Positions 46,437 through 49,110 of a stretch of DNA of 64,000 nucleotides are shown one piece after another (position 1 is the stretch's first letter; every line of letters begins with the position of its first letter). Below the pieces are notes generated by a model. That model did no database searches and was not told the DNA's origin. It saw only the letters and a list, made by a program, of their open reading frames with translations. Source of the DNA: Couchioplanes caeruleus (GTDB lineage Bacteria > Actinomycetota > Actinomycetes > Mycobacteriales > Micromonosporaceae); assembly GCF_003751945.1 (NCBI RefSeq), contig NZ_RJKL01000001.1, positions 7,396,501 through 7,460,500 of the forward strand, in the 5' to 3' direction. Both the position numbers and the translations under genes were made by a program.

Positions 46437-46823
46437 TCAAAGAGTTGCGGCGGCAAGGGCGACGAGTGCCACCAGCGGTGGCGCGGCCTGGACCGCGGCG
46501 GCCCGGGCGAAGCGGCGGTCGGTGGCCAGCAGCACGGCGCCCGCGCCGGCCATGCAGGCGCCGGCGAAGCCGATCAGGGAAGCGCCCGCGACGGTGCGGC
46601 CCGACGCGGTCGCGGCGACGCCGGCGAGCACGCCCAGGGCCAGGAACAGGTTGTACCAGCCCTGGTTGAACGCCATCGGCCGGATGGCGTCGGCGTCGTG
46701 CTGTGACGTGACGAGAAAGCGCCGCCAAACCGCCGGGCGGGTGAAGCGCAGGCTCTCCAGCACGAAGAACTGGACGTGGACGAGGGCGGCCAGGGTGGCG
46801 GCCACGAGGGCGACGAGGAGCAC
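46437..46823 (-). CDS. DUF1304-family membrane protein
   Basis: 128 residues from GTG 46823 behind GGAAGGA. Four hydrophobic helices; signature HVQFFVLESLRFTRPAVWRRF and NQGWYNLFLALG are characteristic of DUF1304 proteins, often found beside TetR regulators. It is transcribed divergently from a TetR gene, across two palindromic operators, so it is the probable target. Function unknown. Confidence 0.88.
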   Translation of the reverse strand: MLLVALVAATLAALVHVQFFVLESLRFTRPAVWRRFLVTSQHDADAIRPMAFNQGWYNLFLALGVLAGVAATASGRTVAGASLIGFAGACMAGAGAVLLATDRRFARAAAVQAAPPLVALVALAAATL

Positions 46824-46842
46824 GGAGATTCCTTCCCAGTTT

Positions 46843-46858
46843 TGAACCGATCGGTTCA
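46843..46858. promoter_or_regulatory. Palindromic operator O1
   Basis: TGAACCGATCGGTTCA is a perfect 16-bp palindrome. It overlaps a TTGAAC (46842) that can serve as -35 for the TetR gene, whose -10 would be TATGCT at 46864. Confidence 0.75.
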
Positions 46859-46867
46859 GAAAGTATG

Positions 46868-46885
46868 CTGTACCGATCGGTACAG
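46868..46885. promoter_or_regulatory. Palindromic operator O2
   Basis: CTGTACCGATCGGTACAG is a perfect 18-bp palindrome centred 26 bp from O1 and sharing ACCGATCGGT with it. It overlaps the expected transcript start of the TetR gene. Confidence 0.75.
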
Positions 46886-46903
46886 ATTCGTCAAGGGGAA
46901 GCC

Positions 46904-47467
46904 ATGGCGCGCACCAGGTCGTTCACGACGGCGAACGCGGTGCGCGCTGCCCGCGACCAGTTCTGGGAGCACGGGTACGAGGCCACCTCCCTGGCCGACC
47001 TCGAACGGGTCACCGGACTCAACCGATCCAGCATCTACCAGGCGTTCGGCAGCAAGCATCAGCTCTTCTCCCTGGCCGTGGAGAGCTACCTCGCCGAGGT
47101 GGCGGCGCCGCGCCTGGCAGCCCTGGAGGCGCCCGGCGCCGGTATCGCGCAGGTGGTCGAGTACCTCGAATCGCTGGCCGCCGTCATGGCGGACGCCCCC
47201 GGCTCCCTCGCCGGGCGCGGTTGCCTCGTCGTGAACACCATCACCGAGCGCGCGGGGCACGATCCGGAGGCACACGCGGTGGGCGTCGCCTACCGCGACA
47301 GGCTGCTGCGCGCTTTCGCGGGCGCCCTTCCGCCGGAAACCGCCGCGCACCGGGCCGAGTTGTTGACCGGCGCGGTGATCGCGGTCCTGGTCACCGCCCG
47401 CCTTGCTCCCGCGGCGGCCGCCACCCTGGCCCGTGCCGCCGCGATGGAGGCACGCAGCTGGCGGTGA
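46904..47467 (+). CDS. TetR-family regulator
   Basis: 187 residues from ATG 46904 after AAGGGGAA. The DNA-binding helix-turn-helix reads ARDQFWEHGYEATSLADLERVTGLNRSSIYQAFGSKHQLF, here with its core YEATSLADLERVTGLNRSSIY. A C-terminal TetR_C domain follows with RGCLVVNTITE, seen in the AcrR/YxaF-like subgroup that responds to hydrophobic compounds. It likely represses itself and the DUF1304 gene through O1 and O2. Confidence 0.93.
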   Translation: MARTRSFTTANAVRAARDQFWEHGYEATSLADLERVTGLNRSSIYQAFGSKHQLFSLAVESYLAEVAAPRLAALEAPGAGIAQVVEYLESLAAVMADAPGSLAGRGCLVVNTITERAGHDPEAHAVGVAYRDRLLRAFAGALPPETAAHRAELLTGAVIAVLVTARLAPAAAATLARAAAMEARSWR

Positions 47468-47507
47468 ACCCTGTCGGCTTCGAAGGCGAGGGCGGGACCG
47501 CCGCCTC

Positions 47508-47978
47508 TCACCAGCAATGCGCCGCGAGCCTGAACGTGGCGTAGAGCCGGGCATTGGCGCCGGGCAACTGCTCGGGCGCGACCACGGACGGCAGCAACGC
47601 CCCCATCGCGGTGTCTGCGAGGGTTTCGCCGGTCCCCAGAAGGAACAGCACCGCATAGATGGCGGCGACCGTGACGGTCTCCGTCGCGATGGTCACCGCC
47701 AGCGCGGCCAGGGCGACGGCGCGGACCAGGTTGACCGCGACGACGAGCAGGCGTCGGTCGAGCCGGTCGACGTAGGCGCCACTGATCAGGGCGAACAGCA
47801 ACCACGGCAGCTGCTGGACGAAGACGGCACCGGCGATCGCAGCCGGATCGTCGGTGACCGACGCGACCAGCAGCGGGCCGGCGGCCATGGTGACACCATC
47901 ACCGAGGTTCGACACCGCCGAAGCGGTCCACAGTCGGGTGAAATCCGCGCCGAGACGCGCGGATACAAGGGCACGCAA
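47508..47978 (-). pseudogene. Truncated MFS drug exporter (N-terminal third)
   Basis: From TTG 47978, preceded by GAGGAG at 47984-47989 with 5-nt spacing (an in-frame TTG at 47996 is less likely), 156 codons encode the first four to five helices of an MFS pump. Motifs: FTRLWTASAVSNLGDGV, ISGAYVDRLDRRLLVVAVNLVRA and PSVVAPEQLPGANARLYATF. The frame then ends at LAAHCW, where intact relatives (about 400 residues) continue. The leader upstream retains an elaborate attenuator. The gene was probably an antibiotic-inducible efflux pump and is now inactive unless the fragment has a residual role. Confidence 0.8.
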
Positions 47979-47982
47979 AAGA

Positions 47983-48087
47983 GCTCCTCGAGCCAAGAAA
48001 GGAAACGGTCGTCTCAGGACCGCTCCGCGGCGAGGAGCACACCGCCGGGACGCCCGGCGGTGAAACCGGTCAGCGCGCGGTGTGCTC
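47983..48087 (-). promoter_or_regulatory. Attenuator leader with mutually exclusive hairpins and anti-Shine-Dalgarno
   Basis: On the minus-strand RNA, five pairing segments are visible. A: GAGCACACCGC (48087-48077), inside the uORF. B: ACCGCCGGG (48061-48053). C: CCCGGCGGT (48049-48041). C': GCGGTGTGCTC (48045-48035), the exact complement of A. D: GCTCCTCG (48038-48031), the exact complement of E: CGAGGAGC (47990-47983), the ribosome site of the MFS gene. A:C' excludes both B:C and D:E, because they share bases. This is the layout of translational attenuators controlled by a leader peptide. Confidence 0.7.
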
Positions 48088-48126
48088 TCGCAGCGAAACG
48101 GGGACCGTCACCAGGCCGAGGCGCAT
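48070..48126 (-). CDS. Leader peptide (uORF) of the MFS gene
   Basis: 18 codons, MRLGLVTVPVSLREHTAR, from ATG 48126 with AGGAG at 48132-48136. Its last codons form segment A of the attenuator, so ribosome position on the uORF will decide which hairpin forms. This resembles drug-responsive leader peptides that precede erm, ABC-F and MFS resistance genes. Confidence 0.7.
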   Translation of the reverse strand: MRLGLVTVPVSLREHTAR

Positions 48127-48569
48127 ACCAGCTCCTAACTGTGGATCAATGCTTCAGGGATGATAGCCCCGCACATGGCCGAGGCTCGAACGGTTACCCC
48201 GGCGACCCCGCTTCGGGTGGTAGCAGTCGGTCAGCTCGGCACGGCACCCCTGCGAGAGCCGTTCGCTATGCCGTCACCGTGACGCCAAACCGAACGCCGG
48301 CCGGGCGGCACCACCTCGCCTCATGGCACTGACCAGCAGCGTCAGCTTCAAAACAGGCACTGACCTCCCTCGGCCGAGTGGTCCTGGCCGGTGCCGGTGG
48401 TCATGCCGCTGTCGGAAGTCGCGGTGCGATCCCGGCGAGGGCGGCCCCCGCGCTTAACATCCAATTAACATCTTCGATTTACTTCGGCGTCATCGTCCGC
48501 ACGCCTGCGAGTCGCCTGCCCGGCATAGCGTCGGACCACCAGTAACGGCGGTCCGAGCCGGAGGCCATC
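48127..48569. other. Intergenic, promoter side of the MFS leader and upstream of the 32-residue peptide
   Basis: About 440 bp. The minus-strand side should hold the promoter of the MFS leader, but no convincing -35/-10 pair was found. An AT-richer patch at 48457-48480 (TTAACATCCAATTAACATC) may be the promoter region for the small plus-strand peptide gene. Confidence 0.35.
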
Positions 48570-48668
48570 ATGGAATACGTCCTCGTGCAGGTGCTCATCC
48601 AGGTCCTCAGCGCCGTCCTGATCGCCTTGGCCACCGCCGCCATCCGCCGCGTCTTCGCCTGGCTCTGA
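48570..48668 (+). CDS. 32-residue hydrophobic peptide
   Basis: ATG 48570 follows GGAGG (48560-48564) at ideal spacing. The peptide begins MEYVLVQVLIQVLSAVLIAL and continues with Ala and a C-terminal RR...W segment: one membrane-spanning helix with a positive tail. A small hairpin follows 20 nt after the stop. Size and composition recall small membrane peptides such as type I toxins or transporter modulators, but no antitoxin RNA can be demonstrated. Confidence 0.45.
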   Translation: MEYVLVQVLIQVLSAVLIALATAAIRRVFAWL

Positions 48669-48687
48669 CCCGCCGACGCGCGAACCC

Positions 48688-48706
48688 GAGCGGCCTCCGG
48701 CCGCTC
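48688..48706 (+). terminator. Short hairpin after the small peptide gene
   Basis: 8-bp stem GAGCGGCC/GGCCGCTC with a TCC loop; no T-tract. Confidence 0.4.
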
Positions 48707-49023
48707 CCGCCGTCGCCGGCACGCCGACCCGCCGTCGTCGGTGCTCGCGGCTTCAGGCAGTGGCGTCGTGTCCGGCCCTTTGCGCAGCCGGGTTGAGCAG
48801 TGCCTGGGCGAACCGAGCCGTCTGCTGTGGTCCCAGCGTCGTCGCCGGGTGATCCGGGCGGCGAAGGCGCCGGCGGCTCGCGCGCGGCCCCGGTAGGCGA
48901 GGGCCGCGGCGGTGACGGCTACCGGGTGGTCTGCGGAGCGCACCAGTTGGTGCAGCCGTCGCTCGATGCGGCGCTCGACATGTACCTCGCACTGTTCTTC
49001 GTGCTCGAGGCCGGCCCGGCTGC
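48707..49023. other. Intergenic, nothing supported
   Basis: Open frames exist on both strands, but none has a ribosome site plus a recognisable domain. A minus-strand segment (QLVRSADHPVAVTAAALAY) has coding-like composition and might be a relic. Confidence 0.35.
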
Positions 49024-49110
49024 GGTTACCGAAAGGTGCCCGGGTAACTGAAAAGTGCCTTCTTCTCATCCCGGGATCGCTCTCCTACGGTGACTAGGTA
49101 ACCGAAAGAG
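49024..49110. promoter_or_regulatory. Direct-repeat operators around the RidA promoter
   Basis: GGTTACCGAAAGGTGCC (49024-49040) and GGTAACTGAAAAGTGCC (49043-49059) repeat with a 19-nt period. A third copy of the left part, GGTAACCGAAAGAG, lies at 49097-49110. A TACGGT at 49086 could be the -10, so the copies flank the promoter. They are plausible sites for the HxlR regulator encoded next door. Confidence 0.55.

Follow-up and report, generated by a model that had tools for sequence, protein, structure and literature searches.

The window, a stretch of 64,000 nucleotides from Couchioplanes caeruleus, carries on its minus strand a truncated MFS gene, the product of which passes the cut-offs of both PF05977 and PF07690, and upstream of it a leader in which a uORF with its own Shine-Dalgarno (SD) sequence precedes several segments able to pair with one another (Table 1). 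Over 149 codons the MFS ORF lies in DNA homologous to an intact ortholog, with 15 synonymous and 9 non-synonymous differences from the intact copy; thus, as a sequence-only reading of this DNA had claimed, the pump is cut to about a third (about 149 of 401 residues are left) while the switch in front of it is intact. The neighbouring pair of DUF1304 and TetR-family genes is also present in genome G024, and there is no MFS homology in the 19 kb of G024 compared. Because the MFS homology ends at 47531 and the DNA homology of the TetR-family gene to G024 ends at 47470, the break is located between 47470 and 47531, where a rearrangement (or an assembly error) may have cut the pump. The genome of the window has a single match to a covariance model of the leader (described below), and its next best protein match to the pump is 44% identical.

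Table 1. Features of the leader, the truncated pump gene and its neighbours, in coordinates of the window
Feature	Position	Strand	Remarks
-10-like TATCAT	48160-48165	-	weak; homology to the Couchioplanes copies stops just upstream
SD of uORF, AGGAG	48136-48132	-
uORF, MRLGLVTVPVSLREHTAR + stop	48126-48070	-	ATG..TGA; 18 codons
Segment 0, CGCCTCGG	48116-48123	-	uORF codons 2-4
ACGGTC	48103-48108	-	codons 7-8; complements GACCGT of inner hairpin
Segment 1, CGCTGCGAGAGCACACCGC	48077-48095	-	codons 11-17; predicted ON pairing with anti-SD region
Spacer hairpin, ACCGCCGGG / CCCGGCGGT	48061-48053 / 48049-48041	-	9 bp, exact pairing; lineage-specific
Segment 2, GCGGTGTGCTC (48045-48035) overlapping anti-SD	48031-48045	-
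Anti-SD, GCTCCTCG	48038-48031	-
Inner hairpin, GGAGCGGTC..GACCGTTTC	48002-48026	-	between anti-SD and SD; terminator-like by pattern
Segment 3, SD of MFS gene, CGAGGAGC	47990-47983	-
MFS start, TTG	47978	-
Truncated MFS (PF05977) ORF	47508-47978	-	TTG start; 156 aa, compared with ~401 aa in the closest intact ortholog
TetR-family gene	46865-47467	+	convergent
DUF1304 protein	46437-46823	-	back to back with TetR-family gene

The uORF and its AGGAG are present as first proposed, and the exact pairings reported around the uORF are real: its 3' word GAGCACACCGC (48087-48077) is the exact complement of GCGGTGTGCTC, which overlaps the anti-SD by 4 nt, and the anti-SD in turn complements the MFS gene's SD exactly. 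The claim that such pairings are unlikely by chance also holds, in that, of 2000 dinucleotide shuffles, 3 reach an exact 11-nt complement between the uORF and the downstream leader, the mean being 6.4; furthermore, the 186-nt leader folds better than 200 of 200 shuffles (z -4.1). The spacer hairpin pairs exactly as well, but it is no general part of the switch, the spacer being very variable in length and near zero in many of 24 aligned leaders. Three elements had been overlooked: the conserved inner hairpin at 48026-48002; the additional complementary word in codons 2-4 (segment 0), which is predicted to pair with the SD of the MFS gene when the RNA carries no ribosome, and for which segment 1 is another possible partner; and the ability of uORF codons 7-12, in predicted folds, to pair with the region of the inner hairpin, the pairing of ACGGTC with GACCGT being present in minimum-energy folds. 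A consensus scan detects no sigma-70 promoter, and a search of 46800-49100 against Rfam yields two chance-level matches, both below the gathering threshold and outside the leader.

When 60 genomes were searched with the truncated protein, 30 loci were returned, the window's own included, and the leader is present in the window and at 22 of the 29 other loci; at the remaining seven (L019, L025-L030) there is no such leader within the 230-260 nt printed. The window, these 22 and L031, a second and broken copy in genome G030, form an alignment of 24 leaders, A1. A further scan took one genome per species, with genomes partly shared with the 30-locus set, and found 78 loci of the MFS family, 58 of which have the uORF by the criteria used, although kinship among the sequences inflates these locus counts. 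The scan covers Micromonosporaceae and other actinomycetes, including Micromonospora, Salinispora, Actinoplanes and allies, Nonomuraea, Sphaerisporangium, Acrocarpospora, Actinomadura, Actinoallomurus and Nocardia mexicana. A set of 60 leaders, overlapping the set of 24, consists of the 58 loci, the window and L031; upstream of the uORF, the homologs printed have purine-rich stretches. The 20 loci at which the same criteria found no uORF were left out of this set, the omissions including L104 (an apparently real leader with a long spacer), L134 (a uORF with a GTG start), and L135 and L112 (at contig edges). When a covariance model built from A1 was applied, with stricter filters, to 150 family genomes, an even sample of a larger group, it matched 28 of them, with 30 matches in total: 20 of the 21 matches with E <= 2.2e-13 adjoin an MFS gene or part of one, the exception being L054, where the pump is gone, and L069 alone among the nine weaker matches has an adjoining MFS gene. 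The class-wide search with this model matched 11 of 197 genomes, strongly in G000, G062, G104 and G329; the seven weak matches have no MFS gene at their loci. Absence of conservation, which the sequence-only reading had named as grounds for abandoning its proposal, was not the outcome, since dozens of species have the leader ahead of their orthologous MFS gene.

Some relatives of the pump gene have other arrangements upstream. At L142 (Sphaerisporangium album) the anti-SD (GCTCCTCGCG), the inner hairpin and the SD are present, and a uORF was not found by the criteria used. The orthologs L099, L105, L113 and L132 (Rhodococcus rhodnii, Kibdelosporangium, Actinosynnema), in which no uORF is recognisable, have an inner hairpin before the SD, which matches GAAGCGGTC..GACCGTTTC by pattern in three of the loci and is similar by eye in L099. 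The more distant MFS loci L126 and L127 (Micromonospora) lack the uORF and have another complementary pair, GAAGCGAT..ATCGCTTC, before the SD; L128, L131 and L133 are apparently related to these two.

Codon choice within the uORF indicates what has been conserved. The 60 uORFs, 11-21 codons long among the homologs, share the consensus M-R-L-x-x-V-T-V-x-A-S-P-R-E, and when the pump genes at the same loci serve as background, synonymous codons at most of these residues are strongly fixed: Arg13 is CGA in 46 of 50 uORFs (background 7.8%), Ala10 is GCT in 31 of 52 (3.4%), Ser11 is TCG in 44 of 45 (31%), Thr7 is ACG in 48 of 52 (32%), Val8 is GTC in 48 of 50 (55%) and Leu3 is CTC in 33 of 34 (32%). 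Arg2, in comparison, is CGA in just 2 of 39. Binomial p-values for these biases overstate the independence of the observations because the sequences are related; nevertheless, with synonymous sites so strongly fixed, much of the conserved peptide is in effect a message at the RNA level. In L003, L007 and L020 the uORF stops just before the CGAGAG/CGAGGA word, that is, before segment 1, and the word is kept; in L004-L006 the peptide is altered to SPEEQAA, and the RNA still contains CGAGGAGC, which repeats the SD word of the window. Retention of CGA as a slow codon is disfavoured, both because CGAGGAGC is out of frame with CGA in L004-L006 and because the word lies past the stop codon in L003, L007 and L020. 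The 18-codon ORF is thus a case of overlapping coding and RNA constraints.

The uORF and the downstream leader match better within a locus than between loci. Segment 1 pairs with its own anti-SD region at -22.3 kcal/mol and with those of swapped species at -19.2 kcal/mol (24 leaders, p 0.0002), and uORF codons 6-18 pair with their own downstream leader at -47.4 compared with -41.5 kcal/mol when swapped, a difference reached in 0 of 10000 permutations with all 60 leaders and also in 0 of 10000 with 20 non-redundant leaders (-44.0 and -37.2). The corresponding tests are marginal for segment 0 with segment 1 (p 0.04; 0.085 on 19 leaders), positive for segment 0 with the SD (p 0.004 and 0.04), and without signal for the SD with the anti-SD (p 0.22 and 0.37), because this last pairing hardly varies. 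For the same reason, column covariation is uninformative and not significant in the aligned leaders, and both-side changes over the whole structure show no excess over shuffles: anti-SD:SD together with the inner hairpin is paired in 92.8% of cells compared with 92.0% after shuffling (41 of 500), and segment 1:anti-SD in 83.2% of cells both before and after (281 of 500). Slid versions of the two structures are less paired, at 39-52% and 46-73%, respectively. The inner hairpin is paired in 96.8% of cells and has both-side changes at two of its six pairs, with three cells changed on both sides, CAGTC/GACTG among them.

The sequence-only reading had concluded that the ON state could not be decided from sequence, and had suggested folding with and without a ribosome footprint. 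When the 60 leaders were folded with a footprint at each codon, in an equilibrium model that ignores co-transcriptional folding, the SD was predicted to be locked by the anti-SD from about codon 8 and mostly freed from it at codons 1-6. The mean probability of SD:anti-SD pairing is 0.07 in the free RNA and 0.20-0.43 with the P-site at codons 1-6, rises to 0.53 at codon 7, 0.81 at codon 8 and 0.85 at codon 9, and drops to 0.60-0.67 from codon 11 onward. Random synonymous recoding of the uORF flattens this profile to 0.67-0.84 in every state, so that the difference between codon 9 and codon 5 is 0.60 for the real leaders and 0.13 for the recoded ones; this amplitude exceeds 0.5 in 39 of 60 leaders, the other 21 falling short, compared with 64 of 360 recoded controls. 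The pattern is kept with other footprints, other flanks and a temperature of 28 C (with an amplitude above 0.5 in 33-40 of 60 leaders), the shortest footprint weakening and shifting the step. In the window's own leader the pairing probability is 0.05 at codon 7 and jumps to 0.89 one codon later.

The SD is paired in some way with a probability of 0.77 in the free RNA, 0.80-0.86 in the predicted ON states and 0.94-0.97 at codons 8-10, and in the set of 24 leaders its unpaired fraction is 0.19 in the free RNA, 0.17-0.26 at codons 4-7 and 0.01 at codon 9. The cost of opening the SD, computed for real leaders only, is 8.6 kcal/mol in the free RNA, 6.3-6.9 at codons 1-7 and ~10 from codon 9, and at codon 9 it lies more than 2 kcal/mol above its value at codons 5-6 in 48 of 60 leaders. 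In the window the cost is 7.4 for free RNA, 6.7-7.7 and thus the same at codons 1-6, 5.6 at codon 7, 4.4 at codon 8 and 9.1 at codon 9; at codon 8, therefore, the two measures disagree, the pairing probability being 0.89 and the opening cost at its lowest. On the strength of the pairing probabilities and opening costs by codon, a ribosome held early as ON and a ribosome that has passed as OFF is the better-supported assignment in these models, and the earlier verdict on the ON state appears too cautious, since footprint folding predicts that an early stall is ON in most homologs. For the free RNA, where the uORF side is the partner of the SD with a probability of 0.57, a closed state is weakly hinted at by the folds; it is less clearly OFF, since opening the SD is dearer than in the ON states, yet the SD is slightly less paired overall.

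We consider it likely, on the basis of these models, that the leader is a ribosome-position-dependent, erm-like translational attenuator of an MFS_3 efflux-type gene. As in erm-type leaders, a uORF with its own SD lies upstream of the controlled gene, and predicted folds, pairing tests and codon constraint all place the main SD in one of two mutually exclusive hairpins. We infer that the leader is transcribed and its uORF translated. In normal growth, ribosomes would read the uORF through to its end, and from codon 8 the ribosome would cover segment 1, so that the anti-SD would pair with the SD and enclose the inner hairpin (OFF). A ribosome stalled within the first codons (about 1-7), for instance by an inhibitor of early elongation, would leave the 3' codons of the uORF free to pair with the anti-SD and the 5' arm of the inner hairpin, so that the SD would no longer be held by the anti-SD (ON). 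Unoccupied by ribosomes, the leader would fold as one long hairpin with the SD paired to the start of the uORF, a state in which the gene is not certain to be OFF. A bolder version, tentative and in our judgement unlikely to be correct in full, is that the leader would be a three-state sensor of ribosome position, closed when unloaded, ON at the first codons and OFF thereafter, operating through RNA words rather than through a drug-specific arrest peptide; if this were so, any block of early elongation would switch the pump on. Ribosome-stalling control of drug resistance, as first suggested, thus stands in one part: a uORF attenuator is well supported by conservation and RNA-level codon constraint, but a resistance role is putative: five proteins missed all cut-offs of the NCBIfam resistance models by far, with sub-cut-off similarities only, for example to MefA. 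Induction by a drug and efflux by the pump are presumptive.

The alternatives to this attenuator differ in what the uORF and the inner hairpin would do. As a refinement of the attenuator, the uORF might additionally encode a specific arrest peptide, with V-T-V-x-A-S residues that would contact a drug inside the exit tunnel. Val6, which 45 of 60 uORFs retain with unbiased synonymous codons, points to selection on the peptide at that residue, but most other conserved residues are explained by RNA words because their synonymous sites are equally fixed, and a ribosome stalled while Ala10 or Ser11 occupies the P-site would mask segment 1, for which OFF is predicted, so that we regard this refinement as possible and somewhat doubtful. 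Transcription attenuation, perhaps combined with translational control, would make the inner hairpin and a pyrimidine tail a terminator, the 3' codons of the uORF an anti-terminator and the anti-SD an assistant. The terminator-like pattern at 48026-48002, the 4-6 T within the next 8 nt after 44 of 53 inner hairpins (the tail being variable among homologs), the opening of the inner hairpin by the predicted ON pairing in some folds, and the use of terminators by actinomycete ABCF leaders (PMC8546547, PMC12421871) are all in keeping with it. Nevertheless, several of the T fall within the stem, and the hairpin pattern is present in 53 of 60 leaders and missing in 7, of which 5 keep the anti-SD pattern. 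Moreover, at least four of the 20 loci with no uORF by the criteria used retain the inner hairpin, and loci without the uORF have it before a nearly full-length gene, which a terminator would shut off. Its retention there suggests, from sequence comparison, a role of its own for the inner hairpin, and we judge terminator-based control to be improbable.

Two further explanations fare worse. An amino-acid starvation attenuator of the classical trp or leu kind would likewise comprise a uORF and alternative hairpins, but none of the 60 uORFs contains a run of codons for a single amino acid and the controlled gene is an MFS_3 transporter, making this explanation very unlikely. Least credible of all, to the point of being scarcely worth entertaining, is that the pairings are chance inverted repeats in GC-rich DNA and without function: high GC content does make long complements commoner, and the pump here is broken, but the shuffled sequences rarely reach such complements and the leader is conserved in many genera with rare codons fixed.

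The erm-like translational attenuator that we favour belongs to a known kind of control, of which the attenuators of ermC and ermB are examples. In the ermB model, a stalled ribosome exposes a start region that is otherwise hidden in a hairpin, and the present leader resembles such systems in its short uORF, in exclusive hairpins sharing one segment and in a gene start region hidden in one of them (PMC11264731). It differs in the controlled gene (MFS_3), the peptide and the hosts (high-GC actinomycetes), and also in that words of the uORF resemble the SD and an arm of the inner hairpin and that the SD is predicted to pair with the uORF start in the free RNA. The cplR leader of Clostridioides difficile has, as here, a uORF and an anti-SD, together with a terminator, and combines translational with transcriptional attenuation; its uORF has three codons, MR[I/M], and its gene is of the ABCF type (PMC10201436). 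The actinomycete leaders of lmrC, tiaA and are5sc in Streptomyces also contain uORFs and respond to ribosome inhibitors, but precede ABCF genes, and no comparable anti-SD is described in the accessible parts of the sources; induction of lmrC and are5sc is transcriptional, via predicted terminators, and the tiaA transcription reporter is constitutive (PMC8546547, PMC12421871). An attenuation-controlled MFS macrolide pump is known in mef(E)/mel, to be compared with the sub-cut-off similarity of the MFS here to MefA, but that system uses transcription attenuation in streptococci (PMC4335068). Eight leader peptides, all of amino-acid kinds, are listed for Streptomyces lividans in the accessible part of PMC8079986, and the present leader does not appear in the accessible parts of PMC3350403, PMC8079986 and PMC8632094.

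Neither the leader-peptide strings nor a description of this leader was found in the open-licence papers searched. Older papers exist on chloramphenicol leaders of Streptomyces and Rhodococcus. Within the open-licence literature, then, the leader ranks as a new family of uORF switches that use an already known kind of control. The family is widespread, occurring in antibiotic-producing and other actinomycetes before genes that are of efflux type by family. Should it work as predicted, the switch could be made into a reporter for compounds that target the ribosome, and it would indicate what an uncharacterised MFS_3 clade does.

The leader is a real and conserved element that is, judging from the models, probably functional in relatives; in the genome of the window the switch probably controls a remnant only. 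Broken pumps follow 4 of the 60 leaders, namely those of the window, L031, L143 (Verrucosispora sediminis) and L147 (Salinispora cortesiana), and L045 and L052 are further broken-pump loci with an intact leader, giving five loci besides the window in all. At L059 only pump residues 152-270 are left, and at L054 the pump and the start of the uORF are both gone. Conservation of truncated pumps as such is not supported: the break points differ, and the broken pumps therefore look like separate events. Because intact leaders recur before differently broken pumps, recent decay is the simplest view, in which loss of the pump happens again and again and the short leader persists for some time afterwards, and the window locus is probably a young remnant. 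The searches favoured loci with the N-terminal part or the leader, so the frequency of broken pumps is not a rate. Four other loci flagged as broken were rejected, L130 being at a contig edge and L138-L140 having in-frame insertions. These three carry a mid-MFS insertion of ~55-95 residues, in frame by spacing, and an uninterrupted ORF was seen for L015 only (the counterpart of L140).

The two other Couchioplanes copies also bear on the history of the locus. Homology of the window to them ends at 48167 and 48173, and in all three cassettes (the others being L031:4970 and L032:5556) it starts at nearly one point, with different flanks, as if the leader and pump had moved as a unit. The locus that matches the intact copy in G030 bears the name Couchioplanes caeruleus subsp. 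azureus, to which the strain of the window is therefore probably related. This subspecies, alongside its intact pump, has at L031:5166-5510 a second copy that has lost an internal part and differs in its upstream region, although its uORF is unchanged.
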